From contig JAJYUA010000011.1 of assembly GCA_021792755.1 (NCBI GenBank), forward strand, positions 1 to 64,000: 64,000 bases of DNA, in the 5' to 3' direction. Positions 36,561 through 57,723 of the stretch are shown in pieces. Origin of the DNA: Pseudomonadota bacterium (GTDB lineage: Bacteria > Pseudomonadota > Gammaproteobacteria > Steroidobacterales > Steroidobacteraceae). Within the stretch, counting starts at the first letter, position 1. Each line of letters opens with the position of its first letter. Position numbers and translations under genes: made by a program. Below the pieces are notes generated by a model, which did no database searches, had not been told where the DNA came from, and saw nothing but the letters and a program-made list of their open reading frames with translations.

Positions 36561-39551
36561 ATGCCGTACTTGCCGCCCGGACTCCTCGAGGGTAAGTTGG
36601 CCCTTGCGTGCCACGGTCAGGTTGGCCCGTGGTCGCGCTCGAACTCCCAACGGGCTCACGCGAGGCTTGGCGTGTCGCACTTCCCATCCAGCCCGCCGGC
36701 GGGCGGACAGGCCGGCGCATCCGGGATCGGTGCCGCCGACGAGGTCTCGATTTCCGCAGAGGCCGTCCTCGCGGTCGTAGGCTCGCTGTACGCGGAGTTG
36801 CACCGCGGGCAGCCGCGGCGCGAGACCGTGGATCTCGCCAGCACGCTGGAGCGGGACCTGGGTTTCGACAGCCTTGCGCGGGTCGAGCTGCTGCGGCGAC
36901 TCGAGGTCCGCTTCGGCCGCAAGCTGCCGGAAGCCACGCTGTCGTCCGTCGACACAGTGGGTGATCTGCTGCGGGCGTGCGGCGCGGCGGAGGTGTCGCT
37001 GCGCCTTGCGCCGTCCTCGGTGCCCGTTGCCGCCCCCGGGATTGCATTGCAGGTGACACGGACCGCCGGCGAGGCGGAGGTGCCGGTGACGGCGGCCACT
37101 CTGATCGATGTCCTGGACTGGCACGCGCAGCGGCAACCCGAGTCCGTCCACGCCGTCGTGATCGTCGACGACGTTCCAACGCCTCTGACGTACGCGGAGT
37201 TGCAGCGTGGCGCTCGCTCGATCGCCGCCGGCTTGCTGCGCACGGGCGTGCAGACCGGCGCGACGGTGGCTTTGATGCTGCCTACCGGGATCGGTTACCT
37301 GCAGGCGTTCTTCGGCGTGTTGCTCGCGGGAGCCGTGCCGGTGCCCATCTATCCGCCGACGCGGCTGTCGCAGCTGGAGGAGCACGTGCGGCGCCACGCG
37401 GGCATCCTCACGAGCGCCGGCGCCACGGCGCTGCTCACCTTTGCGCAGGCTCGCGCGGTCGGACGCCTGCTCGGCTCGATGGCGCCGAGTCTCGAGCACG
37501 TGCTGTCGCTCGAAGACCTGCGGGGCGAGGAGGGCCTGCGCGGCAGCCCGCGCAGCGTCGGGGCCGGATCGATCGCGCTGCTGCAGTACACCTCCGGCAG
37601 CACCGGAGATCCCAAGGGCGTCGTGCTGACCCACGGCGACCTCCTCGCCAACATCCGCGCCATGGGCGAGGCGGGCAAAGTGACTCGCGCCGATACGTTC
37701 GTGAGCTGGCTCCCCCTGTATCATGACATGGGACTGATTGGCGCCTGGCTGGGATCGCTGTACTTCGGCTGCTCCCTCGTCCTCATGTCGCCGATGGCGT
37801 TCCTGGCGCGGCCCGCCCGCTGGCTTCGCGCGATCCACGACTATCGGGCGACGCTGTCCGGCTCGCCCAATTTCGGCTATGAGCTGTGCGCGGCCCGGGC
37901 GCAGGAGGAGGAGTTGCGCGGCCTCGAGCTGTCTTCGCTGCGGATCGCATTCAACGGGGCCGAGCCGGTTCTTCCCCAAACCGTCGAGCGGTTCGAGCGG
38001 CGTTTTGCGCCGTACGGGTTCCGGCGCGAGGCCATGATGCCGGTGTATGGGCTGGCCGAGGCCGCCGTCGGACTGACGTTCTCACCCCTTGGCCGCGGGC
38101 CGAGGATCGACGCCATCGAACGAGCCGCGATCACGGCCGCCGCACGCGCTGTGCCGGTACCCGAGGGCGCAGCCGATGCGCTGCGCATCGTCTCCTGCGG
38201 GCGGGCGCTGCCCGGCTACCGCCTGCGCATCCTGGGGCCGGACGGCTCGGAAGAGCCGGAGCGGATCGAAGGGCGCGTGCAATTCACGGGTCCTTCCGCC
38301 ACATCAGGCTACTACCGCAACGACGCCGCCACGGCGCGCCTGTGCCAGGGCGAGTGGCGGGAGACCGGGGATCGAGGCTACCTCGCGGACGGGGAGCTGT
38401 TCGTGACCGGCCGGGACAAGGACATCATCATCCGACGCGGCCGTCACATCTATCCACAGGAGATCGAGGAGGCCGTCGGGGCGATCGAGGGCGCTCGCAA
38501 GGGGTGCGTCGTCGCATTTGGGGCGAGCGGATCCTCGAGCGCGACCGAGCGGCTCGTCGTTCTGGCTGAGACCCGGTACAGCGATCCGAACCAGCGCCTC
38601 GCGCTGACCACGCGCATCAATGAACGCGTCGTCGACATCATCGGGGAGCCGCCCGAGGAGATCGTGCTCGTCCCCTCGCACACGGTGCTGAAGACCTCGA
38701 GCGGCAAGCTGCGGCGCGCCGCCACGCGCGCCGCCTACGAGGCCGGCTCCCTCGGACGGGCTCGATCCCCTCTCGCCCTGCAGGCGCTGCGGCTGAGCGT
38801 TGCGGCGGCAGTGCCGCTGCTGCGCCGGTTGCGGCGCCGCGTCGCAAGGGTTGCCTACGGCATGTTTGCCCTGCTCGCGGTCGTGACCATCGGAGCACCG
38901 GCCTGTCTGTTGTCGCTGCTCGTTCCCAGCCGGCAGCAGGTCTGGGGCCTGACGCGCCGGGCGGCAAGGTGGACGGTTCGCGCCTGCGGCATACCGTTGT
39001 CCGTCAATCCGATCATGAGCGACCTGCAGCGCCCCCACGTCATCGTCGCCAACCATTGCAGCTACGCGGACGGCCTCCTGCTTGTCGCGCTGCTCCCGAC
39101 TCCCCACCGTTTCCTCGCGACGAGCTGGCTTGCACGAGTGCCCCTGCTCGGCGCGTGGCTGCGCAGATTGGGCACGGTGCTCATCGAGCGCACTGAGCCG
39201 ATCGGCAGCGGCGGCGCACGGGTGAGACCGCCGCTCGATATGGCCGCCGACAGTCTGGTGGTGTTCCCCGAGGGCACGTTCACGGCTGTCACCGGGCTGC
39301 GTCCCTTCCACCTGGGCGCTTTCGAGCTCGCGGCGGCGGCGCGCGTTCCGGTCATTCCGGTGGCGGTGCAGGGCACGCGCACGGTCCTGCGCGACGGACA
39401 GGTGCTGCCGCGCCGCTGGCCGGTCAGAATCACCGTGGGTGCCCCGCTCGAGCGCGCGGGCACCGAAGATGCGTTCGCGGCGGCAGTGCGCTTGCGTGAC
39501 GCCGCCCGCGACCACATTCTCCGCTACTGCGGAGAGCCGGATCTCGGCTGA
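36561..39551 (+). CDS. Carrier protein-acyl-AMP ligase-acyltransferase fusion
   Basis: A 996-aa three-domain protein. An acyl-carrier domain (GFDSLARVELLRRLE, Ser104 as phosphopantetheine site) leads into a fatty-acyl-AMP ligase (YTSGSTGDPKGVVLTHGD, WLPLYHDMGLIG, GRDKDIIIRRGRHIYP). A membrane-tethered PlsC-type acyltransferase follows, with NHCSYADG (HxxxxD) and FPEGT. It could activate a fatty acid, load it on its own carrier and transfer it to a lysolipid or another acceptor. A GTG at 36672 with a GAGG site may be the true start. Its last nine codons lie in the 68-bp repeat. Confidence 0.88.
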   Translation: MPYLPPGLLEGKLALACHGQVGPWSRSNSQRAHARLGVSHFPSSPPAGGQAGASGIGAADEVSISAEAVLAVVGSLYAELHRGQPRRETVDLASTLERDLGFDSLARVELLRRLEVRFGRKLPEATLSSVDTVGDLLRACGAAEVSLRLAPSSVPVAAPGIALQVTRTAGEAEVPVTAATLIDVLDWHAQRQPESVHAVVIVDDVPTPLTYAELQRGARSIAAGLLRTGVQTGATVALMLPTGIGYLQAFFGVLLAGAVPVPIYPPTRLSQLEEHVRRHAGILTSAGATALLTFAQARAVGRLLGSMAPSLEHVLSLEDLRGEEGLRGSPRSVGAGSIALLQYTSGSTGDPKGVVLTHGDLLANIRAMGEAGKVTRADTFVSWLPLYHDMGLIGAWLGSLYFGCSLVLMSPMAFLARPARWLRAIHDYRATLSGSPNFGYELCAARAQEEELRGLELSSLRIAFNGAEPVLPQTVERFERRFAPYGFRREAMMPVYGLAEAAVGLTFSPLGRGPRIDAIERAAITAAARAVPVPEGAADALRIVSCGRALPGYRLRILGPDGSEEPERIEGRVQFTGPSATSGYYRNDAATARLCQGEWRETGDRGYLADGELFVTGRDKDIIIRRGRHIYPQEIEEAVGAIEGARKGCVVAFGASGSSSATERLVVLAETRYSDPNQRLALTTRINERVVDIIGEPPEEIVLVPSHTVLKTSSGKLRRAATRAAYEAGSLGRARSPLALQALRLSVAAAVPLLRRLRRRVARVAYGMFALLAVVTIGAPACLLSLLVPSRQQVWGLTRRAARWTVRACGIPLSVNPIMSDLQRPHVIVANHCSYADGLLLVALLPTPHRFLATSWLARVPLLGAWLRRLGTVLIERTEPIGSGGARVRPPLDMAADSLVVFPEGTFTAVTGLRPFHLGAFELAAAARVPVIPVAVQGTRTVLRDGQVLPRRWPVRITVGAPLERAGTEDAFAAAVRLRDAARDHILRYCGEPDLG

Positions 39552-39586
39552 GGCGTGATGTCTCGCGCAACCAGGGCGCGCCGGCG
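39519..39586 (+). repeat. 68-bp direct repeat, left copy
   Basis: Identical over 68 bases to 57656-57723, same orientation, 18,137 bases apart. It contains a hairpin CTCCGC-TACT-GCGGAG and next to it AGCCG-GATCT-CGGCT. The left copy encodes the last residues YCGEPDLG of the acyltransferase fusion and continues 35 bases past its stop. This arrangement suits an attachment site at the 3' end of a gene. Confidence 0.9.
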
Positions 39587-40003
39587 TCGAAACGTCGGCG
39601 CATCGCGCAAATGCCGCGCGCAGGGGGCAAGACCCCCGGCAAATCCACGTTCGGGCGTCAATTGGTCCGAGACCCCGCCGCATAGTTCCACTTTGTCGTG
39701 TTGAGAGGCATACGGATCAATGACTCGCGTTATGGCCTCAGAGTGGCGGCGTCGATCAGCGCCTGGCGCTGTTGGTGTCGAGCGCGCACTATGGTCATAT
39801 AGCATAGGGCGTTCGCCCGAACAAACCAAGAACCACGCCGATTCGGTCACGCCGGATGCCGACAAGCGGTCAGTGCAGGCCATTGGAGATCCGGCTGGCC
39901 CCGCGGTGAGATCCTCGACAGCGAACGCGACGAGCTTCGAGCGGCGTAGGGCCACGGCATAGCCGAGGAGCAGCAGCGCCCGGTCGCGCAGCTCGCGCTC
40001 GGT
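39552..40003. other. Intergenic stretch after the left repeat
   Basis: About 450 bases without a supportable gene between the acyltransferase fusion and tspO. Apart from the repeat it holds a 15-base word, CGTCAATTGGTCCGA at 39656-39670, that recurs at 57829-57843 downstream of the right repeat. Confidence 0.5.
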
Positions 40004-40522
40004 TCAGCCGAGTGCGGCGGGATTGGCGCGCCAGACGGCCCAGGCGAGCGCGCAGGCAAACAGCACCCAGGCGAGGTAGGGCAGCAGCAGCACGCCTGCG
40101 ACGCTGCTGACCCGCCAGAACGCGGTCACGGTGATCCCGAGCAGGGCCACGAGCAGCACGATCCAGGCGAAGGACAGCGCGCCCATGTGCAGCCGAAAAA
40201 ACAGCCACGACCAGACTGCATTGACGGCGAGTTGCGCAAGAAAGAGACGCACGGGTCTGGAGTTCGTCGGCCGGACCCGCCAGACCCGCCACAGGGCCAA
40301 GGCCATCAGCAGGTACAGGATGGTCCAGACCGGTCCGAACAGCCATCCCGGCGGCGCCCACGCCGGCCGCGCCAGATGCGCATAGAACGCGCCGGCATTG
40401 ATCGAGGCGATGGCGCCGAGGGCGGCAGCCGCGAAGCTCAGCGCCAGCGACATCACGAGCAGCCGCAATGCGTGGGGGCGGGCGCTGCGGCTTTCGCGGT
40501 CGGACGAGTTGGGCTTCGCCAT
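40004..40522 (-). CDS. tspO: TspO/MBR family protein
   Basis: A 172-aa membrane protein with five helices. Start at Met40522 (MAKPNSSDRES); the open frame extends 12 codons further. The TspO signature is clear: RPAWAPPGWLFGPVWTILYLLMALALW, then AVNAVWSWLFF. TspO proteins bind porphyrins and help control stress and tetrapyrrole levels. It lies 105 bases downstream of the dab-cysD operon on the same strand, so it may be cotranscribed. Confidence 0.92.
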   Translation of the reverse strand: MAKPNSSDRESRSARPHALRLLVMSLALSFAAAALGAIASINAGAFYAHLARPAWAPPGWLFGPVWTILYLLMALALWRVWRVRPTNSRPVRLFLAQLAVNAVWSWLFFRLHMGALSFAWIVLLVALLGITVTAFWRVSSVAGVLLLPYLAWVLFACALAWAVWRANPAALG

Positions 40523-40627
40523 CGGTCTAGCCTGCGGCAGTGCACGCGGCGTGGTCAAGCACGGCGGCGGTTCGACATCATCTTCGAAATCGGCCGGGGC
40601 CTTGCGTAGTGCTGGAACGATCGGCGG

Positions 40628-40888
40628 CTATGCCCGCGACATCTGGGGCGTCGCGCCGTGCACGCCGAGGGATCGCCCGGAATACTCCTCACGGGCGATG
40701 CGCGCCTCGGTCCAGGGACGCAGCAGGTGCCCGAGCAGTTCCAGATCGTTGGCGAGGGCGAGCGGGTCGCGCTCGAGGGCGGCACGGAGCGTGTCCTTCA
40801 GCCATTCGCTGAGCGCCGGGTGCGCCAGCGCTTGATGAATCCGCCGCTCGGTGCTGATCAGTTCGATTTCGGCAGGGCCGGGGGACAT
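40628..40888 (-). CDS. Unknown 86-aa protein at the end of the dab-cysD operon
   Basis: Start set at 40888, preceded by a good GGAGAG site; the frame stays open to 40951. The protein is mostly helical and charged, with SEWLKDTLRAALERDPLALA and NDLELLGHLLRPWTEARIAR as its core. There is no signal peptide, membrane segment or metal motif. It begins 22 bases after the cysD stop, so it belongs to the same transcript. No family is recognised. Confidence 0.65.
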   Translation of the reverse strand: MSPGPAEIELISTERRIHQALAHPALSEWLKDTLRAALERDPLALANDLELLGHLLRPWTEARIAREEYSGRSLGVHGATPQMSRA

Positions 40889-40910
40889 GGCATGCTCTCC
40901 TCTCAGGACG

Positions 40911-41861
40911 TTAGAAATAACCTTCGCGCTTTTGCTGCTCGAGCGAACCACCGGCTTCCCGATCGGCCAGTCGGCCGCTGCGTTCGGAGCGGCGTGAGCG
41001 CAGGGTCTGCGCCACGATCGCCTCGAGTGTCTCGGCGTCGGATTCTTCCGCGGCCGTCACCGGCCAGCACCCTAGGGTGCGAAAGCGCACCATGCGCTCC
41101 TCGGGAACCTCTCCCGGACTGAGCGGCATGCGCTGCGGATCGTCGACCACGATGAGCTGCCCGTCGCGCGCCACCACCGGCCGGGGGCGGGCCAGGTACA
41201 GCGGCGCCAGTTCGACGCCGCGGGCCAGGGCATGGGCGAGCACATCGAGCTCTGTCCAGTTCGAGAGCGGGAAGACGCGCGCGCTCTCGTGCGGACCGAG
41301 ACGGAAGTTGAACAGGTTCCACAGCTCCGGCCGCTGACGGCGCGGCTCCCAGGTGTGATTCGGGCCGCGCACCGACACGATACGTTCCTTGGCGCGCGAG
41401 CGCTCCTCGTCACGCCGCGCGCCACCGATGATGATGTCGTAGTGAGCGGCATCGAGCGCGCTTTTCAGCGCCTCGGTGCGCATCACGGCCGTGTAGCGAT
41501 CGCCGTGATCGAACGGGTTGATACCGGCGTCGCGGCCGGCTTCGTTGCAATGCACGCGCAACTCAAAGCCATGCCGGCGCGCGAAGCGATCACGGAACTG
41601 CAGCAGTTCGCGGAACTCCCAGGTCGAGTCGATGTGCAGCAGCGGCACTGGCGGGCGGGCGGGATGAAACGCGCGGCAGGCCAGATGGGCGAGTACCGTC
41701 GAGTCCTTGCCGCCGGAGAACAGCAGCACGGGATTGCGCGCCTCGGCGAGCGCCTCGCGCAGGATGTAGATCGCTTCGGATTCCAGTGCCGCGAGTGCGG
41801 TGTGCGCCAGCTCCGAGCGCGCATCGGGCGGGCGTGTCGTCGGTGCACAGGCGCCCCTCAT
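40911..41861 (-). CDS. cysD: Sulfate adenylyltransferase subunit 2 (CysD)
   Basis: A 316-aa ATP-pyrophosphatase-type protein that makes adenosine phosphosulfate from sulfate and ATP. PP-loop SGGKDS at 49-54, GGARRDEERSRAKERI, FPLSNWTELDV and the C-terminal KREGYF all match CysD. Its ATG overlaps the dabA stop (ATGA), so it is cotranslated with DabA. The GTPase partner CysN, normally the next gene, is absent from the window. Its place in a bicarbonate-uptake operon is unusual. Confidence 0.93.
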   Translation of the reverse strand: MRGACAPTTRPPDARSELAHTALAALESEAIYILREALAEARNPVLLFSGGKDSTVLAHLACRAFHPARPPVPLLHIDSTWEFRELLQFRDRFARRHGFELRVHCNEAGRDAGINPFDHGDRYTAVMRTEALKSALDAAHYDIIIGGARRDEERSRAKERIVSVRGPNHTWEPRRQRPELWNLFNFRLGPHESARVFPLSNWTELDVLAHALARGVELAPLYLARPRPVVARDGQLIVVDDPQRMPLSPGEVPEERMVRFRTLGCWPVTAAEESDAETLEAIVAQTLRSRRSERSGRLADREAGGSLEQQKREGYF

Positions 41862-44344
41862 GCCTGCACTCCGCAGGATTCCACAGCCTCGCCCGGCGAT
41901 GGGGTGTGTTCAGCGCGGCTCACGCCGTGCAGGCGCTCGAGACTCTGCGCGTGCATACAGTACACATACAGCCACTCGTTTTCGATCAACTGCAACACCT
42001 CGGGCTGGCGCCGCAAGGTCCGTTCGATCCGCTCGCGCGGGGCATCGATCAACACCGTCAGGCGCAGTGGGGCGTGGCGCCAAGCGCTGCCGTCATGCAC
42101 GGACTGGCGGGCCAGTCCGATGCGCAGATCGCCGCTGTGTCCCTCCAGCACCCCGATGTGCCCACCGATCACGTTGTGCAGCAGCTTGTTGCCGCTGCCG
42201 AAGCGCTCCGGATCGACGGTCGAGCCGAAGTACTGCAGGTTGATCCAGTGCGCCACGATCAGCGGGCCGGCGAGCACCTGCTCGAGCACGGCGCCGTCCG
42301 TGTCCTGCTGCCAGCGGTACTCGTGCAGGAAGACCCGCCCCTCGAGGTCGATGCCGCGCGTCCGCTCGCGCGGCGCGAGGATGAACGCGGCATTGCCGGC
42401 GAGCCCCCACTCGGGCCGCACTTCGGCCCAGTCCCGCGTGCGCCGCCGCAGGCGGCGCAGCAAGGCCGCCTCATGTCCGGCGAGGTGCGCCAGACCGAGA
42501 GCGGCGGCGCGCTCGCGGCGCACCTGGGCCCCGGCGCGCGCCAGGCTCGCGCGCAGTCGCTTCAGATCGGCCGCATGGCTCGGCGGGAGGTGCTGCGGAT
42601 CGAACAGCTCGACGGTGTCCGTCACGGTGTCGTGCAGTCCGGCGATGACCACGGTGTGCTCGGGAATATCCACGCCGAGTTCGGCGAGCGCGTGCCGTAC
42701 GGTCGAATCGTTCAACAGGTCGGCGAGAATCCGTGCGTTGACATCGCCGCCGTGGCCACCGCAGGCGCCGCAGGCGAGCGCTGCGGCCTGCGGATTGTTG
42801 GTGGTGCGCGCACCGTGCCCGATGAGCACGAGCAGGCGGGCCAAGGGCCGCTCGAGCGCCATGGCGCCGAGGATCCGCGCCGCCAGCCGCGCCTGTTCGG
42901 CGAGCGCTTCGGGGCCGCTACCGCTGAGATGCGGCCGCAGCGAGGCATGCACGGCGCGCGCGAGCCCTGTGCGCGTGAGGTTCTCCGGCGCCCACCCGAA
43001 TGCCCGGGCGAGCAGCTTCGGCAGATAGGCGAGACCGAGGATTTCCACCGTGCTGAACGCGCCGGTGGGCATGCGCGCGAAGGGCTGCAGACTCGCGCGC
43101 TGCCGCAGTGTCCGCTGGCGCTGCTCGGCCAGGCGCTCGTCCTCGGCGGCGTTGCCGCTCGTCTCGAACGCGGTGAGTGTCGGAGCGAGCAGCGCCGGCA
43201 GCTGGGGTCGCTCGAGGGAGGTGCCGAGCGGCGTGTAGCGCAGCGGTAGTCCGAAGAAGCCGGCGAAGCCGTACGTACGCACGCCACGATCGACCTGCTC
43301 GAGGGCGCGGCGCATGCGCTCGGAGCGCACATCGATGCAGAAGACCAGCTGCGCGTGCGGCGGTGCGGGTGGTCCAGTCGAGTCCGCGCCGCCAGGGGCG
43401 CTCAGCGCGGCGAACAGACGCTCCTGGTAGGCGAGCTCATGCGCGCGCTGCCAGAGCAGGTCGATGGCGAGCGATCCGCGCAGCTCGCTGTCGGCCGGCA
43501 CGTTCCACTGCGCAAGCCAGTCTCGCCACACCGAATGCTCATCGTGCCGCCCGTCGTGCATCAGCGCCTCCCAGGCCAGCCGGATCACCAGCAATTGCGC
43601 CAAGTGCCCGTCATCGGCGCCGGCGAGCGTTGCTTCCCAGCGCAGAAAAGCGCACCAGGCGGCCCAGCCCCCGATGCGCTGGACAATCACCTCGAGCAGA
43701 TCGCACAGCTGCGTCTCGCGCATCGCCAGTCGATCGAGCGCCCAGTCGAGTGCCGCGTCGGCCGTCCCGGGCAGCGCCGTGGCACGGGGATGCAGCGGCT
43801 TGAAGCGCCGATCCTCGAGCAGCGCCGCGCGCCAGTCCGCGAACAGTCCGGGCAGGCGCTGCGGCCGCCAGTCGGCCTGCTGCCGATCGAAGTAGGCTGC
43901 GCAGAACTCGCTGATCTGCTGCGTGATGCGCACTCGCCAGGGTACGCCACCGCTGCGGCGAGGGTCGCAGTCGAGCTGGTCGCTGAGCAGCGGCAGCCCG
44001 CGCGCGGCGCCGGCGGGTTGCTCGAGGGCTCGCACCGCGGCCTGCGCGCTCGGCACGGTGGACTGTTCGCGCAGGGCCTGCTCGAGGTGGGCCGGCTGGA
44101 TCTGTCCTTGCCGCCAGGCACGCAGATACTCATCGCGCGCCAGTGTCAGGGGCGCGCCGCACAGCCGCCGCAGCCGCTCGGCCGCCACACCGAAGCGCAG
44201 TGCCCGATATCCCCAGTAGGGGCTGACCGCAACCTGCCGATCGATCGGCCAGGCGGGCGCCACGGTGCGGCAGGCCGCCTCGAGCGCCGCGCGGCGCAGA
44301 TCCGGGGTGCTTCGGCACGCGGCCGCTGTGTTTGCGTCGCTCAA
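41858..44344 (-). CDS. dabA: DabA, inorganic-carbon uptake subunit (DUF2309)
   Basis: An 828-aa soluble subunit related in its zinc site to beta carbonic anhydrases. Zinc residues by alignment with Halothiobacillus DabA2: Cys336 and Asp338 (FCIDVRSE), His510 (IGHGART) and Cys525 (ACGACGG), with matching spacing. With DabB it takes up CO2/bicarbonate using the ion gradient. The start is a TTG at 44344 overlapping the dabB stop (TTGA). The frame is open to 46000, but that part runs over dabB and is a shadow. Confidence 0.93.
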   Translation of the reverse strand: MSDANTAAACRSTPDLRRAALEAACRTVAPAWPIDRQVAVSPYWGYRALRFGVAAERLRRLCGAPLTLARDEYLRAWRQGQIQPAHLEQALREQSTVPSAQAAVRALEQPAGAARGLPLLSDQLDCDPRRSGGVPWRVRITQQISEFCAAYFDRQQADWRPQRLPGLFADWRAALLEDRRFKPLHPRATALPGTADAALDWALDRLAMRETQLCDLLEVIVQRIGGWAAWCAFLRWEATLAGADDGHLAQLLVIRLAWEALMHDGRHDEHSVWRDWLAQWNVPADSELRGSLAIDLLWQRAHELAYQERLFAALSAPGGADSTGPPAPPHAQLVFCIDVRSERMRRALEQVDRGVRTYGFAGFFGLPLRYTPLGTSLERPQLPALLAPTLTAFETSGNAAEDERLAEQRQRTLRQRASLQPFARMPTGAFSTVEILGLAYLPKLLARAFGWAPENLTRTGLARAVHASLRPHLSGSGPEALAEQARLAARILGAMALERPLARLLVLIGHGARTTNNPQAAALACGACGGHGGDVNARILADLLNDSTVRHALAELGVDIPEHTVVIAGLHDTVTDTVELFDPQHLPPSHAADLKRLRASLARAGAQVRRERAAALGLAHLAGHEAALLRRLRRRTRDWAEVRPEWGLAGNAAFILAPRERTRGIDLEGRVFLHEYRWQQDTDGAVLEQVLAGPLIVAHWINLQYFGSTVDPERFGSGNKLLHNVIGGHIGVLEGHSGDLRIGLARQSVHDGSAWRHAPLRLTVLIDAPRERIERTLRRQPEVLQLIENEWLYVYCMHAQSLERLHGVSRAEHTPSPGEAVESCGVQA

Positions 44345-45894
44345 GCCGCCCCGCCCTCGCGTTGGGCCAGCCACTGGCCGAGGCGCCCGTGCGCGCTGCG
44401 CACGCCGCGCCAGGGCCATTGCGAGGTGACCAGCCGCGTGACCGGCTCGTCGAGAAAGTACCCGGCCGCCGCCCAGGCGTACAGGCGCGAGCGATGGGCC
44501 GCGGGGCCGGCGCGCCAGGCGTGCGCCTGCGCCCAGTACAGCCCGAGCAGACAGAGCGCGCCGTACAGCGCGAGTGCCGGTGCGGGCCGCGCCGAGGCGA
44601 CGGCAAGGCCGCGGCTCATCGCCACGTGCCAGAGCAGATACAACTGCACGGCAAGCGCGGCCGCCAGCAGGCTGCGAGCCCGAGTGAGCCGATCCGGCGC
44701 AGCTTCCCACAGGAGCGTCGCGACGCCGAATGTGCACAGCAGCAGTGCGATCCAGGGGAGCGCGGGGGCGTGCAGCACAGCGTGCCACAGCTGCGCCGAG
44801 GATGTGACGAGGCCGGCTGTGACTGCAAGCCCCAACAGGGGTGCGACTCGCGGGCGCGCCCCCGGCTGCGGTTGCATGCGCTCCGCGCCGCTCTCGCGCA
44901 CCGCCTCCCCGGAGGAGAGGAACGCGTGCGCCTTGTAGAGCGCATGCCCGAGCAGGTGCAGCAGCGCCAGAGCGTACAGCCCCAGACCGCATTCGGTTGC
45001 CATGAGGCCCATCTGCGAGCAGGTGGACCAGGCAAGCCGCCCCTTGCGCGTCGGGCAGGTCATCAGGGTCAGTCCGGCGAGCACCGCGGTCGCGCCGCCG
45101 ACGATCACCAGCAGTGCCTGGGCGGGGAGCGATGCGCTGATCAGCGGTGCGAGGCGGATCAGCACGTAGCCGCCGAGGTTGACGACGCCGGCGTGCATCA
45201 GCGCCGAGACGCTGGTCGGCGCCTCCATCACCTGCACCAGCCAGCCATGCAGCGGCAGCTGAGCGGATTTCAGCAGCACGGCTGCGGCGATCAGCAGCGC
45301 CGCGCACTGCAGGTCGGCGCCGGCGGCGCCGTGCGCGCCGGTCAGTTGCGCCAGGCGCGTCAGTTCGAGCGTATGCCAGCGCCGATAGAGCAGCAGCGCC
45401 GCGCCGAGCAGGCAGATCTCGGCGAGGCGGCTGGCGAGGAATTTCTTGCGGGCGGCGACGCGCGCTCCCGGTCGCTCGCGATAGTGCCTCAGCAGCGGAT
45501 GCAGCGCGGCGCTGCTGGCGGCCCAGCCCAGCGCCAGTACCGCGAAGTTGCGTGCCGCAACCACTGCGCTGACGCCGGCGAGCGTCAGCAGCAGCGCACA
45601 GACGAAACGCTGCTCGGTGGCCTCGCCGCTGAGGTTGCCGCGTGAGTAACGGGCGATCACCCAGCCGAGAAACGCGATCAAGGTCATGACTGCGGCCGCC
45701 GGGGCGTTGTGCGGGCCGATGACACGACCTGGCACCAAGTGGCTCGCATCGCCGGCAAGCGCCGCGCCGAGCGCCCCGACCGAGGCGCACGCGAGCGCCG
45801 ACCAGACCGAACGGCGGCGCACCGCCGCGCCGGCCGCCCCGAGCAGGTACAGCAACGGGACGAGCCAGGCGGTCCAGTGCGGGTGATGCGGCAT
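44341..45894 (-). CDS. dabB: DabB, membrane subunit (NuoL-like)
   Basis: A 517-aa polytopic membrane protein with about 13 helices, related to the proton-pumping subunit NuoL of complex I and to Mrp antiporter subunits. Key stretches: KSAQLPLHGWLVQVMEAPTS, SALMHAGVVNLGGYVLIR and LLGHALYKAHAFLSSG. In DAB systems it couples ion flow to CO2 hydration by DabA. First gene of the minus-strand operon dabB-dabA-cysD-86-aa ORF, divergent from a LysR gene 74 bases away. Confidence 0.93.
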   Translation of the reverse strand: MPHHPHWTAWLVPLLYLLGAAGAAVRRRSVWSALACASVGALGAALAGDASHLVPGRVIGPHNAPAAAVMTLIAFLGWVIARYSRGNLSGEATEQRFVCALLLTLAGVSAVVAARNFAVLALGWAASSAALHPLLRHYRERPGARVAARKKFLASRLAEICLLGAALLLYRRWHTLELTRLAQLTGAHGAAGADLQCAALLIAAAVLLKSAQLPLHGWLVQVMEAPTSVSALMHAGVVNLGGYVLIRLAPLISASLPAQALLVIVGGATAVLAGLTLMTCPTRKGRLAWSTCSQMGLMATECGLGLYALALLHLLGHALYKAHAFLSSGEAVRESGAERMQPQPGARPRVAPLLGLAVTAGLVTSSAQLWHAVLHAPALPWIALLLCTFGVATLLWEAAPDRLTRARSLLAAALAVQLYLLWHVAMSRGLAVASARPAPALALYGALCLLGLYWAQAHAWRAGPAAHRSRLYAWAAAGYFLDEPVTRLVTSQWPWRGVRSAHGRLGQWLAQREGGAA

Positions 45895-48094: not shown

Positions 48095-48415
48095 ATGGGG
48101 GTGCCGCTGCCGGCGGCGACCCAGTGGGATTGGGTGAAGGCAGGCGCCGAGAAGTACGTCTCGGTGCACGAAAAGCGCATCCGCCAGGCCGCCCGGGACG
48201 CGCTCGTGCACAACGACGACACGACGATGAAGATCCTGCATCTCAAGCGCGAGCAGCGTGCGGCGGCCCTGGGGAACGACGCCGAGGAGAGCCGCACGGG
48301 GGTGTTTACCTCCGGGATCGTCACGGTCGGTGCCGGCCGCAAGATCGTGCTGTTCTGCACCGCGGTGATACACGCCGAAGAGAGCCTCGATCAAGTCCTC
48401 AAGCGCATCGCCGCT
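48095..48415 (+). pseudogene. IS66-family transposase fragment
   Basis: Residues MGVPLPAATQWDWVKAGAEK, VHNDDTTMKIL and GVFTSGIVTVGAGRKIVLF match the central part of the IS66 transposase (LPASTQW, HNDDTT, GVFTSGI). Both the N-terminal half and the end are missing: the match stops after about 107 residues near LKRIAAKL. It is a remnant, not an active element. Confidence 0.8.
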
Positions 48416-48773
48416 AAGTTAACTTTGGAGGAATTTCTTGGCACCGGCTATCTTATTGTATGAGGTCACGCGAGCACGGCCTGCACAGAAGCGCCGTCGC
48501 TTCCGTTTCTCCTTGCGTTTCTCCAGCAGATGATCTCTGATCCGCACGCGCAACCAGGGCGGTTCGACCCGTATCTCGGGGCGACCGATGCGGGGATGCT
48601 CCGCGTGCACCCGCTCCCATTCCCACTCGGTGCCGAACGCGAAACAGGTGGCTTTGATGTAGTGATCGACCAGGGTGGGAAGGAGCTTGTCGACCGACAA
48701 CAGTTCCGGCGCGATGTCGGTGGTTGCAGCAATTTGTCCCTGCGAGACTTGCAACGTGTCGTACAGAATGGCC

Positions 48774-49609: not shown

Positions 49610-50289
49610 ACGGGGCCGCGGAAATTGCCGGGAAATCACGTTCGAGATGCGCGGAATATAGGGTGGAAAGCCCTGAATAATATGAATTATTCAGAACTTT
49701 CAAATACTTAAACGTGACAAGATGGAAGGAGTGAGCTGACCTGCATTCTGAGCGACGCCCGAAATGGGGCCGTGGCGCTGTCGACGCCAGCAGATGAGTT
49801 CGCCACTCTCATCATCGCCCCGGGGCGGCAAGTGCGCTCTTTAACAATCTGTAGTAGGATCACGCGTCAGATAAGACGCGGATTACCCGATGGGTTCGAA
49901 GCATGCAGGTCAGAGGCAGCGATCGCACATCGAAATACCCTGCCGTTGACAGTATCGATTGAGGAGCCTTACGATTCCGCGCACATCAGTTATGAAGCTA
50001 CCGCACGCTTCATCAAAGAAGCGCGCGCAGGCCTGATCACGACAAAGCGGGGGGTGAGTTTGTTGACGATCGTCACGCGGATGTGACGGGCCGCAGCACG
50101 GCCGCTGTCGCGGGGGCTGCGGTAACGCCGAATGCGGCGGACATCGGGGCATCGAGATCTTTGCGATGCTTCGCTGTAGTGCATCTGCAGCAGGATCCTG
50201 CCCGACACCGAAATGAACCCGGACTTGCAGCTCACCGCAGCTGCGGCCGTCGGCGCGTTGCGCCGGGTGAAGTGGCAAGAGGCAAAACC
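49610..50289. other. Non-coding stretch with AT-rich dyad and boxA-like motif
   Basis: About 680 bases before the AraC gene. It holds a perfect inverted repeat CTGAATAAT-ATGA-ATTATTCAG at 49673-49694, a boxA-like motif at 49833-49851 and a small dyad GCGTC-AGATAA-GACGC near 49865. A 104-aa frame (49772-50086) has no family features and was not accepted. Confidence 0.5.
49833..49851 (+). promoter_or_regulatory. boxA-like antitermination motif
   Basis: TGCGCTCTTTAACAATCTG is nearly the boxA core of proteobacterial rRNA leaders (TGCTCTTTAACAAT). No 16S rRNA gene follows in the window. It may be a leftover rRNA leader carried here by rearrangement, or a leader for the gene at 50290. Confidence 0.4.
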
Positions 50290-51276
50290 ATGTGCACAGA
50301 CAGCAACAGGCGAACGCCGGTGACTGTCGCCACCGGATCAGGCGCGATTGCCCACATTTGGCGACGCACGTTCGACGACTCTGAGGAGCAGGCCGGGTGC
50401 GTCGAATCCCTGTTTCCGCAGCGTTACTTTCAGGTCGGCGCCGGGCGATTCTGCGGTGAAATGACGAGCATCAATCTGGACGGTGTGCGGCTTTTCCGGG
50501 AGCGCGTCAATCGGCGCCTCATCCAGGAAGGCATGATGAACGTAGCGAACATTTCCTGGATTCAGGGCCGCACGGGTCTGTTTCGCTGCAACGGCTTGGG
50601 CCTCGAGCCCGAAGGGGTCATGTCTTACGGAGCGCGCGCGGAGTTCGAGGTCGTCCTAGATGCGTGCGAGCTTATCGGCGTCGCCATCGCGCCCGAAGCG
50701 CTCACGAGCCACGGCGAGGAGGCAGCCGCGCCGTCGGCCAGGGTATCAGGCGGCCTTCGCTTTGTGTCAAGGGTCCTGGCCGCCCCCCTATGTCGAGCCG
50801 TGTCGCGGGCCCTCTTCACCGCGGATGTCAGCGGCAGTGCGCAGATGCCGTGCTGGCAGGCGCTGCGCCAGGAAATCCTCAGCTTGGCTTTGCCGATTGT
50901 CAATCTGCCAGAAGCTGCGGACCTCGGTCGTTCTCGCCAAACCCATGCGCGAGTCGTCCGCTCGGCGAAGCGCGCCATCAATTCGGATCTAACGCACGCG
51001 GCGGGAATTTCGGACCTCTGCCGCGTGATAGGCGTATCCCGCCGCAACTTGTTTTACGCATTCGATGCGGTGCTGGGCCTGTCGCCGCACCAGTACCTGA
51101 AAACGGTTCGCCTGCACGCGGCACGACACGCACTAAAGCATCTCGGACCTGACAAAGGGCGCATCAGCGATCTCGCCTGGGATTGCGGCTTCTCGAAACC
51201 CAGTCAGTTTGCCGCCGACTACAAGCGCCGTTTCGGTGAGTTGCCGTCGGAAACGACGCCGTGTTCCCCATCCTGA
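50290..51276 (+). CDS. AraC-family transcriptional regulator
   Basis: A 328-aa regulator. Start at 50290 (AAGAGGC site, MCTDSNRRTPVTVATG); the frame is open back to 50083 but without conserved sequence. The N-terminal sensory part spans ~210 residues. The C-terminal double HTH has ISDLCRVIGVSRRNLFYAFD and ISDLAWDCGFSKPSQFAADY with FGELPSET. Its layout parallels the regulator at 17725. It lies upstream, on the same strand, of a decarboxylase and a TonB receptor. Confidence 0.88.
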   Translation: MCTDSNRRTPVTVATGSGAIAHIWRRTFDDSEEQAGCVESLFPQRYFQVGAGRFCGEMTSINLDGVRLFRERVNRRLIQEGMMNVANISWIQGRTGLFRCNGLGLEPEGVMSYGARAEFEVVLDACELIGVAIAPEALTSHGEEAAAPSARVSGGLRFVSRVLAAPLCRAVSRALFTADVSGSAQMPCWQALRQEILSLALPIVNLPEAADLGRSRQTHARVVRSAKRAINSDLTHAAGISDLCRVIGVSRRNLFYAFDAVLGLSPHQYLKTVRLHAARHALKHLGPDKGRISDLAWDCGFSKPSQFAADYKRRFGELPSETTPCSPS

Positions 51277-51304
51277 CGCCCGACAGACCCCTCCTCGGCT
51301 GATA

Positions 51305-51331
51305 CCGGCGCCACTGCGCATAGGGCGCCGG
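51305..51331 (+). terminator. Hairpin after the AraC gene
   Basis: CCGGCGCC, an 11-base loop and GGCGCCGG, starting 29 bases after the AraC stop. It could end that transcript; there is no T-run. Confidence 0.35.
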
Positions 51332-51505
51332 CGTCCGTGGCGGCGCCGTTTTGCACTTTTCGGGTACCTGCGGCGCAGGTCACTTCGTAAACTTTTCAGC
51401 TAGCCGGCAAGGCGTGGTCCAGGCGCAGGTGCACACCTGTATGGCCGCGCCCGCTTGCGCGCGCGGCACAGGAAATAGCGCCCTTCAAATTCCGGAGAAG
51501 CGGAC

Positions 51506-52750
51506 ATGTTGGATGGTTTTCTCGTCAAATCGCTGCCTCAGAATGGTGCCCCCACCGAAGAAATCCAGGAGCGTCTGACCAAGATCTCCCTCGACGAGCC
51601 GTACGCGCATTTTGCGAGGGCCTTCCGCGGACCCCAGGACGTGCAGAGGCTCGCACAGTGGGCGTTCGACCGATTTTTCGCTGACAACGGTTTTTTTTCG
51701 CTGTACGCGCCCTACATGCAACAAATCGAGCAGGAAGTCATCGCCATGGGCGTGAGTTTGCTGCATCCGGAACGCGACTCCACGGGCAACTTTACCTCTG
51801 GTGGCACGGAGAGCAATTTCTCAGCGATACACGCCGCCAAGGAATGGGCGCGTGAGCGACGGCCTGGCGTAAAAAAGCCGAATGTCGTTGCGCCCCGCAC
51901 CATACATCCCAGCTTCCACAAGGGTGCCCGCTATCTCGATGTGGAGGTAGTCACGACTGACTTCGATAGCAACGGCCGCGGCATCGCGGCCAACATAGCC
52001 AACGCGATCGACGACAGCACGATCATGATTGCCGCTTCGGCACCTTCCTGGGCATACGCCAATATCGATCCGATACCCGAGATTGCAAAGGTGGCGCGCG
52101 ATGCGGGGCTGTGGATGCACGTCGATGCGTGCATCGGTGGCTACCTATCGCCCTTCCTCGAGAAACTCGGCAGAAACCTTACTCCCTGGGATTTCCGCGT
52201 GCCCGGCGTGATGTCGATATCGGCCGATTTGCACAAGTTCGCTTATTGTCCGAAGCCGGCATCAAGCATTTACTGGCGGCACGCCGAGCTGCAGAAATAT
52301 CACTATGTCGAGGTGAATGACCCGTTTCTCGGCCCCTACAAGTTGGCCGGGTTCTCGGGTTCAAGGTCCGCTGGGCCGATTTTCGCGGCTTGGGCGGTGA
52401 TGAACCACCTCGGAGAGGACGGTTACCTGCGCCTGACGCGCCGTCTCATGGACATCCAAGCGCACATCACGCGCGAATTGCGCGCGATCGGTGGCCTGAG
52501 GGTGTGGGATGTGGATGTCATGCCTTTGCATTTCAGCTCCGACAAGCCGCCCACCGAAGCGATTTACCAGGGATTGCAGGAGAAGGGCTGGATAATGCTC
52601 GGCCGGCTGAATCCCTCGGCCATCACCCTGCCGATTGATCCTAGCCTGACAGACGAGGACCTCGAGAGGCTGCTCAGCGACCTGCGGGATATCGTCGATC
52701 GCCTCGGTCACGCGGCTGCACCCAAGGCAGGCGATATCCGCTATGGATAG
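51506..52750 (+). CDS. PLP-dependent group II decarboxylase-like enzyme
   Basis: A 414-aa aspartate-aminotransferase-fold enzyme. The PLP lysine is Lys244 in SADLHKFAYCPKP, the pyridine-binding Asp is Asp207 in MHVDACIGG, and FTSGGTESNF binds the phosphate. This pattern is shared by group II amino-acid decarboxylases and sphingosine-1-phosphate-lyase-like enzymes; the HVDACIGG form is closer to the latter. The substrate is unknown. A GGAG site precedes the ATG. It lies between the AraC gene and a TonB receptor gene. Confidence 0.87.
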   Translation: MLDGFLVKSLPQNGAPTEEIQERLTKISLDEPYAHFARAFRGPQDVQRLAQWAFDRFFADNGFFSLYAPYMQQIEQEVIAMGVSLLHPERDSTGNFTSGGTESNFSAIHAAKEWARERRPGVKKPNVVAPRTIHPSFHKGARYLDVEVVTTDFDSNGRGIAANIANAIDDSTIMIAASAPSWAYANIDPIPEIAKVARDAGLWMHVDACIGGYLSPFLEKLGRNLTPWDFRVPGVMSISADLHKFAYCPKPASSIYWRHAELQKYHYVEVNDPFLGPYKLAGFSGSRSAGPIFAAWAVMNHLGEDGYLRLTRRLMDIQAHITRELRAIGGLRVWDVDVMPLHFSSDKPPTEAIYQGLQEKGWIMLGRLNPSAITLPIDPSLTDEDLERLLSDLRDIVDRLGHAAAPKAGDIRYG

Positions 52751-53140
52751 CCCCCGTGCCGTGGACGCTCGGCTTCAGAGCAAGCAGGGGGCCCCGTCGG
52801 GCGCTCGACCCGCACTGCGGGTCGAGCGAACCGGGATGAGCCTTGCAATCCCGAAACAGGGCAAGTCGTGCAGGCTCGGAAGAGCCGCTGGGGTCGTGCC
52901 AAATCCGGGCACGCGCCGGCCTTGTCGTGCGGCCTGCTCCCGCGCGAAATCGATCCGGCCAATGATCGCCGGGAGCGCAACAAGGCTTCCGCCGGCATCG
53001 CTGGGAACGACGAGGCGCCCCATCAAGACCCGCGCGCGCAAGGGCGGGGACGCCGGCTCCCCGGGCGATTTCCGGGCACTGGACCATGGGCGCACGAACG
53101 AGCGGCTGACGCGCCGAAAGGGCGCAAGCACGAACGAAAT
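52751..53140. other. Gap between decarboxylase and receptor
   Basis: About 390 bases. The receptor frame stays open upstream to 52868, but the extra sequence is Arg/Gly/Pro-rich and precedes the signal peptide, so it is treated as non-coding. No other feature was seen. Confidence 0.45.
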
Positions 53141-55396
53141 ATGAGGCAAACAATCATGTCGCCAGGCTATGAAGCGAGTTTGAGACACGAGTCCGGTTTT
53201 CCGGCGGTACTCGTGTTGACCGTCATTGCGGCCGGTCTTGGGTGCTGCCCTGTGCGGGCACACGCCGCGAAAACGGGCGGCCCGGCGCCGCTCGGTGTGC
53301 AACAATCCGATCGGCTCCATACCGTCGTCGTGACCGCGGAGCACTGGCACGAGAAATTGCAGGCAGTGCCGATCGCCGTAACGGCATTGACCGCAAGCGC
53401 CCTCAGACACTCCGGCATCGAGAGCACGCTCGGGCTGCAGCAGGCAATTCCGGATTTCGTGATGACAACAAACGCGACGATGGGACAGATCTATCTGCGC
53501 GGCGTCGGCACGGACATCATAAATGAGGGCACCGACCCAAGCATCGCGGTCTATCAGGACGGGGTGTATCAGGCACGGGCAGCGGACTCTATTGCCGAAC
53601 TGTACGACGTCAAACGTGTCGAGGTAGTTCTCGGACCGCAGGGCACGTTGTACGGACTCAATGCGGCGGCGGGCGCCATCAGAATCATCACCAATGATCC
53701 CACCGACCGTTTTCAGGCCGACGCGAGCGCGCAATTCGGCAATTACAACCACGTTCGCACGACGGCCATGGCGAACCTTCCGGTGTCCCGACGCGTCGCC
53801 CTCCGTGTTGCAGGCTTTTACGATTATCACGAGGGATTTTCGAAGTACCAGTACATTGTCGGCAAGAGGGACGACGGCGTGGATGCCTGGGGTGCCAGAG
53901 CGAAGCTGAGCATCAGGCCGACACGAAACGTGAGGTTCATTCTCACGGGCGAGCATACGGACGACCGGAGCACGCGGAACATGGCGCCGGTGGTGGATCC
54001 AAGCCTGTTCTCCCCCGCCATTGACGTGTTCGGTGCAAAACCGTACATCAATCCACGGGATGCCCAGAACAACCTTGCGGACGCCGCCGACGTGACACAG
54101 TCGAAAATCTACGGGACTCTCGTGTGGGAAGGAAACGACGTCGAATTGAAGTCTCTGACCTCGTATGAACCGACTGTAAACAACATAATCCGGCTTGATG
54201 TGGACGCCACAAACGTCAATTTTCTGTGGGATTCGCTGTACGAACGCTCGGACGCCTTTACGCAGAAGTTGCAGCTGAGGTCGACCGCGCATCGGGCGCT
54301 GCACTGGGTCGTAGGCCTGTTTTATTTGCATGAAGCCGCATCGCAGATATTTCCGATCCGGGTAAACATACCGGTCATTCCCGGACCGAAGCCCGACGCA
54401 CTCATGAGCTACGACACGGCGATCTTTACGCACGCCTATGCGGCCTACGGACAGACGTCCTATCGCATCGGCAAGATTCGCCTGACCGCCGGCGTGCGCT
54501 ATAACTATGAGCGAAAAAAGTCGGGGTTCCATGAGGCGATCATCGATCCGTACAAGTTGCTGTCGCCCTACGGCAGCGCAATCGTGAACAACCCGCAAAG
54601 CAGGGGCTGGGGCGCATGGACGCCGCGGTTCGTTATCGGCTATTCCGTCAGGCGCGACATCATGCTGTACGTAAGCGCATCGCGCGGTTTCAAGAGTGGC
54701 GGGATGAATCTGGAAGGCTCCGGAGAGGTCTTCCAGCCGGAGACGCTGTGGGATTACGAGGGCGGAATCAAGGCGACATGGTTCGATGACCGGCTGCGCA
54801 CCAACCTGGACGCGTTCTACTATGATTACCGGAATCTTCAGGTCAGCGTTTTCAATGGCGCGGCGTCGGTGGTCACCAATGTGCCAAAATCGCGCATCAG
54901 GGGATTTGAGGCGAATCTGACCGGATTGCCAATGCCGGATCTGCTGCTTGATCTGCACTTGGCTCTGCTCGATGCCCGCATCGGCAGATTCAGTACGCCT
55001 AACCCGAATACGGGTTTGGTGCAGAATGTGAGCAATAACACGCTGCCGCGCGCTCCGAAGACCGCGCTGACCGCCGGAGTTCAATACACCGTGCCGTGGG
55101 TTCATACGGGGCGGCTCACGATGCGCGCCGACATGAAATATCAGTCCAGGATCTATTTCACCTATTGGGACAGTCCGGGAGTTGATCAAGGAGGCTATTC
55201 GCTGTTCAATTCACGCTTGAGCTACCGGATCGGCAACGGCTCGTGGTCCGTGGCGTTGTACGGCAACAATCTCAGCAACAAGCTGTATCGGGCGAGCGTC
55301 GTGCAGTCGCAGTCGCAGATCGGCACGCTGCTGTTTTGGGGCCCGCCGCGGACATTCGGCGTGGAATTCCGATGGCGCCATGTCCGCGGTGAGTGA
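53141..55396 (+). CDS. TonB-dependent outer-membrane receptor
   Basis: A 751-aa receptor from ATG 53141; a second ATG at 53156 has a better ribosome site (GAGG). The signal peptide core is AVLVLTVIAAGLG, ending near AHA. Plug domain: TVVVTAEHWHEKLQAVPIAV, IYLRGVGTD and VEVVLGPQGTLYGLNAAAGA. The barrel ends FGVEFRWRHVRGE, with an aromatic near the C-terminus. The neighbours (decarboxylase, amidase, acyl-CoA ligase) suggest uptake of an amide or aromatic-type substrate; this is inference. Confidence 0.94.
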   Translation: MRQTIMSPGYEASLRHESGFPAVLVLTVIAAGLGCCPVRAHAAKTGGPAPLGVQQSDRLHTVVVTAEHWHEKLQAVPIAVTALTASALRHSGIESTLGLQQAIPDFVMTTNATMGQIYLRGVGTDIINEGTDPSIAVYQDGVYQARAADSIAELYDVKRVEVVLGPQGTLYGLNAAAGAIRIITNDPTDRFQADASAQFGNYNHVRTTAMANLPVSRRVALRVAGFYDYHEGFSKYQYIVGKRDDGVDAWGARAKLSIRPTRNVRFILTGEHTDDRSTRNMAPVVDPSLFSPAIDVFGAKPYINPRDAQNNLADAADVTQSKIYGTLVWEGNDVELKSLTSYEPTVNNIIRLDVDATNVNFLWDSLYERSDAFTQKLQLRSTAHRALHWVVGLFYLHEAASQIFPIRVNIPVIPGPKPDALMSYDTAIFTHAYAAYGQTSYRIGKIRLTAGVRYNYERKKSGFHEAIIDPYKLLSPYGSAIVNNPQSRGWGAWTPRFVIGYSVRRDIMLYVSASRGFKSGGMNLEGSGEVFQPETLWDYEGGIKATWFDDRLRTNLDAFYYDYRNLQVSVFNGAASVVTNVPKSRIRGFEANLTGLPMPDLLLDLHLALLDARIGRFSTPNPNTGLVQNVSNNTLPRAPKTALTAGVQYTVPWVHTGRLTMRADMKYQSRIYFTYWDSPGVDQGGYSLFNSRLSYRIGNGSWSVALYGNNLSNKLYRASVVQSQSQIGTLLFWGPPRTFGVEFRWRHVRGE

Positions 55397-55614
55397 GAAT
55401 CGACCCCTGGGACGGACGGTCAACGGGATCGGGCGGCTGCTCCAGGGACGAAAACGAAGATCGAAGTCGTGCGGGCTCGTGGTGGTAGATCATCTGGTGC
55501 AGCCGCGCCTGCAGCGCGATTCGCGCCTGCGCCGTCGCGCTGGCCCATGCTCGAGCCCGAGTGTGCCGCAGCTTTTTCTGTCTGGTTCCGGCTGTGCCGG
55601 CTTGGGAGACGGGT

Positions 55615-57057
55615 ATGAAGCTCTGTGAATATGCGAGCTATGACGCGCTGGGCCTGGCCGAGCTAGTCAGGAGCGGCGCAGTGAGCGCCGAGGAATTGCG
55701 CGATGCGGCGCTGCTCGCCGTCGAGCAGGTCAATAGTGAGCTCAACGCGGTGATCGGCCTCGCGCCGGAGGAGGCGGAGCGGGCTCTGCGCGGGCGCGAC
55801 CGCGCAGTGCCATTTTCCGGGGTGCCTTTCCTGCTCAAGGACATCGGCGCCCATATGGCCAATGTGCGGAGCGAGCTCGGCTCGCGCTTCGCCAAGGGGT
55901 TGACTCCGCCGACTGACACCGAGCTCGCGGCGCGCTTCAAGAAAGCAGGACTAGTGACCGTGGGGAGGACCAACGTGCCAGAGTTCGGCAACAATGTCTC
56001 GACCGAGTCGCTGCTTTACGGGCCCGCGCACAATCCGTGGAATCTTTTACGAAGCACCGGCGGCTCGAGCGGCGGCGCCGCGGCCGCCGTGGCGGCCGGC
56101 ATCGTGCCCATGGCCCATGGCAACGACGGGGGCGGGTCGATCCGCGTGCCGGCGGCCTGCTGCGGCGTGTTCGGCATGAAGCCCAGCCGCGGACGCAATC
56201 CGGCCGGACCGCAGTACGAGGATCTGATTTTCGGCCTCGGAGTGGAGCATGTGCTGACACGGACCGTGCGCGACAGCGCCGCGATGCTGGATGCCACTCA
56301 TGGCGCCGATGCAGGGGCGCGCTACCTGCTGCCGGGTCCCGAAACCACCTATCTGGCGGCCTGCGAGCGGGACCCGAAGCCGCTGCGCATCGCGTTTTCC
56401 GTGAAGCCGCTTGAAGGCGCGCCCGAGATCGATGCGCTTTGCCGGGAGGCCGTGCTCGAGACGGCCAGACTCTGTGAGAGCCTGGGCCACCACGTGTTCG
56501 AGGGTGCGCCGCTTATCGACCATGACGAGGTCTGCGCCGTCTTTCGTGACGTTGCCGCGCCGTTTATGACCGCATCGTTGAAAACGCTAGCCGAGGCCCT
56601 GGACAAGGAGGTCACGGCGGATGAGCTTGAGTCCACGACCTGGGCAATCTTTATTCATGGCGCTCGGATGAGCGCCGCTGAATTTGCCGGCGCCATCGGA
56701 AATGTCAACGCCGTGAGTCGCAAGCTCGGGCAGTTCTTCACAAGCTGCGATCTGTGGCTCTCGCCCGTTCTGAGCAGGCCGACGGTGAAGCTCGGGGTGC
56801 TAGATGCTAATGAAAAGGGTCTCGATGCGTTCCAATGGGTGAGGAAGATGATGGATTACGCGCCGTTCTGCGCGATGTTCAACGGTTCGGGGCAGCCGGC
56901 GATGTCGGTGCCTCTGCACCAGACACCCGACGGACTGCCTGTCGGGGTGCAGTTTGCAGCGCGATTCGGGGATGAAAGCACGTTATTTTCGCTGGCGGGT
57001 CAACTGGAGCGTGCGCGTCCCTGGGCTGAGCGCCACCCGGAGGTCTTCGTGCGGTAG
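55615..57057 (+). CDS. Amidase (amidase-signature family)
   Basis: A 480-aa Ser-cisSer-Lys hydrolase. Lys75 (FLLKDIG), cis-Ser151 in [19 protein letters not shown] and nucleophile Ser175 in [11 protein letters not shown] are all present. Start at 55615 with a GGGAG site. It cleaves a carboxamide; the family also covers GatA and 6-aminohexanoate-cyclic-dimer hydrolase, and there is no gatB/gatC next to it, so it is a catabolic type. It follows the TonB receptor by about 220 bases. Confidence 0.92.
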
Positions 57058-57433
57058 GTCGCCGGCGAGGACGCGCATCTGCTCAAATGCCGTGTGGGAG
57101 GAATCTACGCGGAGTAGAACTTGAATACGCGATGGCCGGAAAGCGAGCCGACCGTGGTTCAGTGGAGAGCACGGAGATCTAATTGGCACTGCGTCTTCGC
57201 CGATGCCGCGCGCTGAGTGAAATCTGCCGCTGGCAGCCCGTTCACGCCGCCTACCGGACCGCAAACGGGAAGTGGGGTTCAGCACCACCGGCTCGGCGGC
57301 CGGCAAGAGGGAATGGGTTCACCGAATATTTACAAATAGGCTGACGGGAGTGGCATCATGAAAAGCGCGGCAAGCGCAAGTGTCGCAAGTGCGGACTCGT
57401 TGCGCGGATGAGGGCTTGTTCGACGGCGGGCGC
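57058..57433. other. Gap upstream of the truncated ligase
   Basis: About 375 bases, no gene. The words GTGGCATCATGA (near 57350) and the same again near 57868 precede both ligase copies, which suggests that the promoter region was duplicated along with the gene. Confidence 0.45.
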
Positions 57434-57688
57434 ATGAATTGCACGACACAATTCGTAAAGGTGCGCGACAGCCTGCTGCGGTTCAGGCAGGATCTGGCGG
57501 CGGCGCAGCGCGAGTTCGGGTGGCGGGCATTGGAGGAGTTCAATTGGGGGCGGGACTGCTTCGACGCCAGGGGCGCCATCGGCGCGGATGACGATCGGAT
57601 GCCGTTGCGCGTGGTGGACGACGCCGGCGGCGACGAGGCGCTTGCTTTTGCTGACCTCCGCTACTGCGGAGAGCCGGATCTCGGCTGA
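57434..57688 (+). pseudogene. Truncated acyl-CoA ligase fused to the repeat
   Basis: The first ~74 residues match the start of the intact ligase at 57942: FVKVRDSLLRFRQDLAAAQR against FIETRDRLLRLREDLAAARQ, EEFNWGRD against DEFNWARD, and LRVVDDAGGDEALAF against LRVVDDGGHGETLSF. The match ends at ADL, exactly where the right 68-bp repeat starts, and the frame then reads RYCGEPDLG and stops, copying the end of the acyltransferase fusion. The AMP-binding core is missing, so it cannot be an enzyme. Confidence 0.85.
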
Positions 57689-57723
57689 GGCGTGATGTCT
57701 CGCGCAACCAGGGCGCGCCGGCG
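57656..57723 (+). repeat. 68-bp direct repeat, right copy
   Basis: Identical to 39519-39586. Here it follows the truncated ligase rather than an acyltransferase. The first 33 bases are the last codons and stop of the fusion gene, so this copy looks like a displaced gene 3' end. Confidence 0.9.

Follow-up and report, generated by a model that had tools for sequence, protein, structure and literature searches.

An 18-kb insertion bounded by a 68-bp direct repeat and by two halves of a divergent target-locus allele in a Steroidobacteraceae genome

We analyzed a 64,000-nucleotide stretch of DNA, here called the window, that comprises positions 1 to 64,000 of contig JAJYUA010000011.1 (contig C10) in the draft genome of a Steroidobacteraceae bacterium (GCA_021792755.1; genome G000; 3.76 Mb, 57 contigs, 96% complete). 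In it, 18,069 bp (39587-57655) are enclosed by the two copies of a 68-bp direct repeat. To the left lies a fusion gene, a 996-amino-acid open reading frame (ORF) with AMP-ligase, PP-binding, and acyltransferase domains, whose top NCBIfam matches are fatty acyl-AMP ligases (every match shown scores under its curated cut-off); to the right lies an acyl-CoA synthetase gene, referred to below as the ligase gene. The enclosed DNA carries a dab-cysD operon, debris of insertion sequences (IS), and a module encoding an AraC regulator, a pyridoxal phosphate (PLP) decarboxylase, a TonB receptor, and an amidase (Table 1). Relatives were sought in a genus set of 58 genomes, G000 included.

TABLE 1 Coordinates of the features at the insertion locus, in window numbering
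Feature	Position	Strand	Basis or remark
AMP-ligase (FAAL-like)/PP-binding/acyltransferase fusion gene	36561-39551	+	Pfam; 3' end within repeat
Left repeat copy, recipient-type sequence	39519-39586	+	11/12 diagnostic sites G000/G003/G057-like, 1/12 G018-like
Left insert end, first half of divergent ligase upstream region	39587-39682	+	Nearest G018
dab block: PAPS-reductase-domain gene, DabA, DabB-like gene, LysR gene	39866-46973		Pfam
IS debris	46974-50293		
IS1634 transposase remnant	about 48773-49564	+	NCBIfam, 105.6 bits (cut-off, 100)
AraC regulator, PLP decarboxylase, TonB receptor, amidase module	50294-57334	+	Pfam; 93.8% identical in G057
Right insert end, second half of divergent ligase upstream region plus ~70 ligase codons (gene fragment)	57335-57655	+	
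CTCCGC at right joint, 3 to 6 nt of likely microhomology	57656-57661	+	Ligase and fusion-gene sequences at joint
Right repeat copy, continuous with ancestral right flank	57656-57723	+	G003 contiguous with 57656-63851 at 91%
Acyl-CoA synthetase (AMP-binding) gene (ligase), ancestral right neighbor	57942-59642	+	

An exact-repeat search of the window confirmed the repeat to the base: 39519-39586 and 57656-57723 are identical, and their flanks differ on both sides. As the preliminary description of this DNA had it, the left copy consists of the final codons of the fusion gene (10 of them) with the stop, plus 35 bases. Local repeats at 7.9 to 8.1 kb and 17.3 kb aside, other exact direct repeats in the window reach 20 bp at most, and a search there for inverted exact repeats of ≥20 bp found none. 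A search of the whole draft genome returned the known pair and no further copies, which rules out a multicopy repeat family; a tRNA-borne insertion site is ruled out by the absence of tRNA genes from the window. The simple reading of a transposase insertion with a 68-bp target duplication was rejected because the ends of the insert are homologous to the locus itself, as described below.

Matches to the fusion gene at E ≤ 1e-100 occur in 15 of the 58 genomes and matches to the ligase gene at E ≤ 1e-60 in 39, some of them distant paralogues only (35 to 38%). In two relatives, G003 and G018, the fusion and ligase genes are adjacent, about 250 bp apart, with a single copy of the repeat (84% identity over 61 bp and 95% over 37 bp, respectively); these are empty sites of the kind that the preliminary description had proposed looking for. 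In G003, window positions 32612-39579 (90% identity) and 57656-63851 (91%) match adjoining sequence, with an overlap confined to the repeat. Compared with G003, the recipient DNA is intact on both sides of the insert, with no loss at the right side, where we place an illegitimate joint. The repeat is present in 3 of 40 genomes searched (G000, G003, and G018), as a single copy in both relatives, and at 97% identity in a fourth genome, G057, outside that set of 40. In all four it adjoins the ligase gene, and no other use of it was seen. The 18-kb stretch beside the fusion gene is a real insertion.

Both ends of the insert resemble the region upstream of the ligase gene. Aligned to the resident ligase gene, over its upstream region and initial codons, the right end, whose homology may start near 57327, scores 165; the maximum in 200 shuffles was 46. 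The left end scores best against the G018 intergenic region (51, matched by none of 500 dinucleotide shuffles). A motif seen by eye, GCAAA..GTCAATTG(G/T)TCCGA..GTGGCAT(C/T)AT, is shared by several ligase upstream regions of the genus, which makes both halves recognizable. Because the two ends match two parts of this region, the cargo lies inside a second ligase promoter region, with one half of it on either side. Separately, inspection by eye revealed a conserved element upstream of the acyl-CoA ligase gene in several genus genomes (57775-57890 in the window), possibly a regulatory site.

The affinity of the sequence changes at the inner edge of the repeat. We counted diagnostic sites, defined as positions where G018 differs from a base common to G000, G003, and G057. 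Within the repeat, 1 site is G018-like, 11 are recipient-like, and none is neither; the corresponding counts are 15, 5, and 11 for the left insert end, 19, 11, and 6 for the upstream part of the right end, and 33, 16, and 8 for its coding part. This coding part is 79% identical to the G018 ligase gene and 67 to 69% identical to those of G000, G003, G057, G050, and G014. A maximum-likelihood tree of ligase 5' ends (29 rows: the two fragments plus 27 ligase loci, L021 to L048 less L047, which lacks a 5' end) places the fragment copies from G000 and G057 beside the G018 ligase (support, 100/99); the resident ligases of G000, G003, and G057 form a group together with their G050 and G014 counterparts (95/88). 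Taken together, diagnostic sites, fragment identities, and tree indicate that the repeat is of the recipient type and the sequence inside the repeats of the G018 type.

The right joint lies within a truncated ligase gene. The fragment ends GCT GAC CTC (GCT GAG CTC in G057) and is followed by CGC TAC TGC of the fusion-gene end. The aligned joint codon is CTC in the ligase genes of G000, G003, and G014, three of the four compared, and the right joint likely formed at a 3- to 6-nt microhomology, CTC up to CTCCGC, the donor side of which we infer. On the left, 39586|39587 may be the true breakpoint or merely the point where the alleles diverge. The next stretch inward, 39682-39788 (~107 bp), is 78% identical to a stretch on contig C78 of G003, just beyond the end of a PQQ-dehydrogenase-like gene, and 73% identical to one on contig C50 of G000.

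The cargo is composite, consisting of the dab operon, IS debris, and the decarboxylase-TonB-amidase module. Pfam supports the gene content of both coding parts, including DabA, a DabB-like antiporter-domain protein, a PAPS-reductase-domain (CysD/H-type) protein, and a LysR regulator. Of the two IS remnants reported earlier, IS1634 was recovered and IS66 was not: six frames of 46900-50301 (Pfam and NCBIfam) and of 39587-39867 (Pfam only) gave no match to it. DabA matches at 1e-80 occur in 18 of the 58 genomes, and none was found in G003, G018, or G057. The dab operon (inorganic-carbon uptake) is common, at 96 to 98% over most of its length, to congeners whose leuS is only ~80% identical to that of G000: its main parts match G004, G007, and G058 at 96.5 to 97.8%, and smaller left blocks match G007 and G058 at 89 to 92%. 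Matches to the amidase were found in five genomes, G000 included, at 94% in G057 and 43 to 46% in the three others. These comparisons support a cargo that is foreign in part, as the earlier reading of the segment as a decayed island implied. In G004, G007, and G058, the dab block lies within a common context at 94 to 97%; parts of the PAPS-reductase-domain gene are without a match in G007 and G058.

Within the genus, G057 is only distantly related to G000 (leuS identity of 81%, versus 93% for G003), and it has no fusion-gene match at 1e-100. Positions 50294-69045 and 69044-73215 of contig C10 align in it at 95% and 96%, right joint included; the fragment adjoining the joint is 89% identical, with gaps. 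Because G057 carries the right joint and G003 is empty, the joint probably arose later than the split from G003 but earlier than that from the source of the G057 block. In G057 (L053 6595-8863), the start of the shared block lies ~2 kb from a tRNA-Pro gene, with an ISL3-family transposase between them.

We consider it probable that the insert is a stretch of the homologous locus from a related lineage whose ligase allele is of the G018 type, imported and added beside the resident allele. The composite cargo would already have been inserted in the ligase promoter region of that lineage before import. On the left side, a homeologous crossover would have occurred in the intergenic region between the fusion and ligase genes, at or before 39586; on the right side, illegitimate closure would have joined ligase codon ~70 to the 3' end of the recipient fusion gene at CTC(CGC). 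Since, in recipient coordinates, the right joint would lie 68 bp upstream of the left joint, the recipient sequence between them would have been duplicated, giving a 68-bp repeat that resembles an attachment (att) site or a target-site duplication. The same product could arise from an illegitimate unequal crossover between a cargo-bearing and an empty allele, from homology-facilitated illegitimate recombination (HFIR) with its homologous side on the left, or from circularization followed by a single crossover, and the present data fit these three routes alike. Ectopic recombination, the alternative offered in the preliminary description, was nearer to the truth than the integrative element that it preferred. 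At 84% identity, a contig end of G020 (C320) matches 39585-39635; it can also be aligned to the resident flank (score of 53, without a control), suggesting that the imported allele has undergone a small deletion.

Several observations weigh against such an import. No intact donor allele was found among the 58 genomes; the full-length left end occurs in none of them except G000 (some match in nine, G000 included), and the left joint was seen in G000 alone. Left-end scores against the flank of G000 itself and against G003, G056, and G013 were 36, 28, 42, and 38, reached by 4, 80, 3, and 9 of 500 shuffles, respectively. The diagnostic-site signals are majorities, none of them unanimous, and the joint codon of the G018 ligase is CTT instead of CTC. 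By local BLAST, stretches of ~108 nt of the G040, G015, and G044 ligases are 77 to 79% identical to the fragment, equally as high as G018 (76% over 270 nt), and the tree does not place these three with the fragment. A near-identical amidase occurs only in G057 among the 58 genomes. Finally, the repeat copies are identical even though the right joint cannot be younger than the split between G000 and G057 (~4.6% divergence). About 3 differences between the copies would be expected and none is seen (P about 0.04, simple Poisson), so that conversion, constraint, or chance must be invoked.

Import would be unnecessary if a local tandem duplication, from the fusion-gene 3' end to ligase codon 70 (~0.5 kb), had been followed by entry of the cargo into one copy. 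Formally, the insert ends and right flank do equal a tandem duplication with CTC at both endpoints. We nevertheless find this unlikely in either of its forms. If the duplication were recent and one copy had drifted, the fragment would be expected inside the resident clade, but the tree joins it to the G018 ligase (100/99); if it preceded the G018 split and was followed by reciprocal loss, with G018 keeping one type and G003 the other, two independent losses would be needed, and the 68-bp repeat would have to have been kept identical and recipient-type.

Genomic islands carried by integrases into gene or tRNA 3' ends are recognized by a direct repeat containing the gene 3' end, foreign cargo, and an empty site in relatives, and our locus shares all three. 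The preliminary description had the segment as a relic of such a site-specific element, with the 68-bp fusion-gene end as att core and the integrase lost, and the perfect repeat, its two copies in the genome, and its single copy in empty-site relatives fit that account. No integrase was found on the contig: of 16 PF00589 matches in the genome, none lies on contig C10 (serine recombinases were not searched for). Unlike in integrase-borne islands, however, both repeats are adjoined by the halves of a divergent target-locus allele that has been split, and the right joint falls inside a truncated ligase gene. The integrase model does not predict a split target allele and homology-driven import does, so the integrative reading is unsupported and, in our judgment, very improbable. 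A misjoin at the repeat during assembly is scarcely credible: the draft is in 57 contigs and the left joint is seen in G000 alone, but the right joint recurs in G057 beside a fragment that is 89% identical.

The interval 36400-39551 varies repeatedly: G014 and G050 lack the fusion gene there, matching the window up to 36377 and then the ligase gene within ~130 bp, and a 58% relative lies on another G050 contig. The ORF just upstream (35865-36377) matched no family in the Pfam search. A second replacement relative to G003 covers 63852-64000 and runs on to position 73760 of contig C10 (L062), cutting a TonB-receptor gene (820 amino acids in G003); it contains two PLP-decarboxylase ORFs, a TonB receptor, a DDE_Tnp_1 transposase, an SDR gene, and an MFS gene. 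The G057 counterpart of 64122-64845 has 72% DNA identity to window positions 51580-52305.

The 18-kb locus is best explained as a new example of a known process, the homology-driven import of a cargo-bearing allele. HFIR is described for naturally competent bacteria and, in PMC3240628, for Escherichia coli conjugation. As in our locus, homology acts on one side, an illegitimate joint forms on the other, and foreign DNA is trapped; a microhomology of 3 to 10 bp is cited there for most HFIR joints, and the four HFIR clones of that study had no joint homology (three) or 1 nt (one). Classical HFIR, in the same account, couples insertion to a deletion of similar size, ~1 kb on average, whereas here 18 kb were added, 68 bp were duplicated, and no recipient loss is seen. 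Additive integration of a circular donor also leaves foreign DNA flanked by a short direct duplication: in 56 of 60 E. coli recombinants, PCR yielded the product of a partly duplicated homologous locus, the commonest outcome, which the authors explain by one crossover with a circular donor whose homology had been shortened (PMC3240628). Those duplications measured 109 to 950 bp in 14 sequenced clones of a laboratory plasmid system; ours is 68 bp long and arose in nature, between diverged alleles. Transformation-driven duplications through alternative pairing are described in PMC3784515.

It is conceivable, though we lean against it, that the interval from the leuS-lptE group to the acyl-CoA ligase gene is an integrase-free exchange hotspot in this genus. 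Cargo from one lineage would then spread through the homology of flanking alleles and be added beside the resident allele, and the short perfect repeats left behind would imitate att sites. Direct repeats at gene 3' ends are commonly taken as att sites when islands are called. Here, the sequence just inside the repeats points to a different origin, and the same test may be applied to other islands that lack an integrase.

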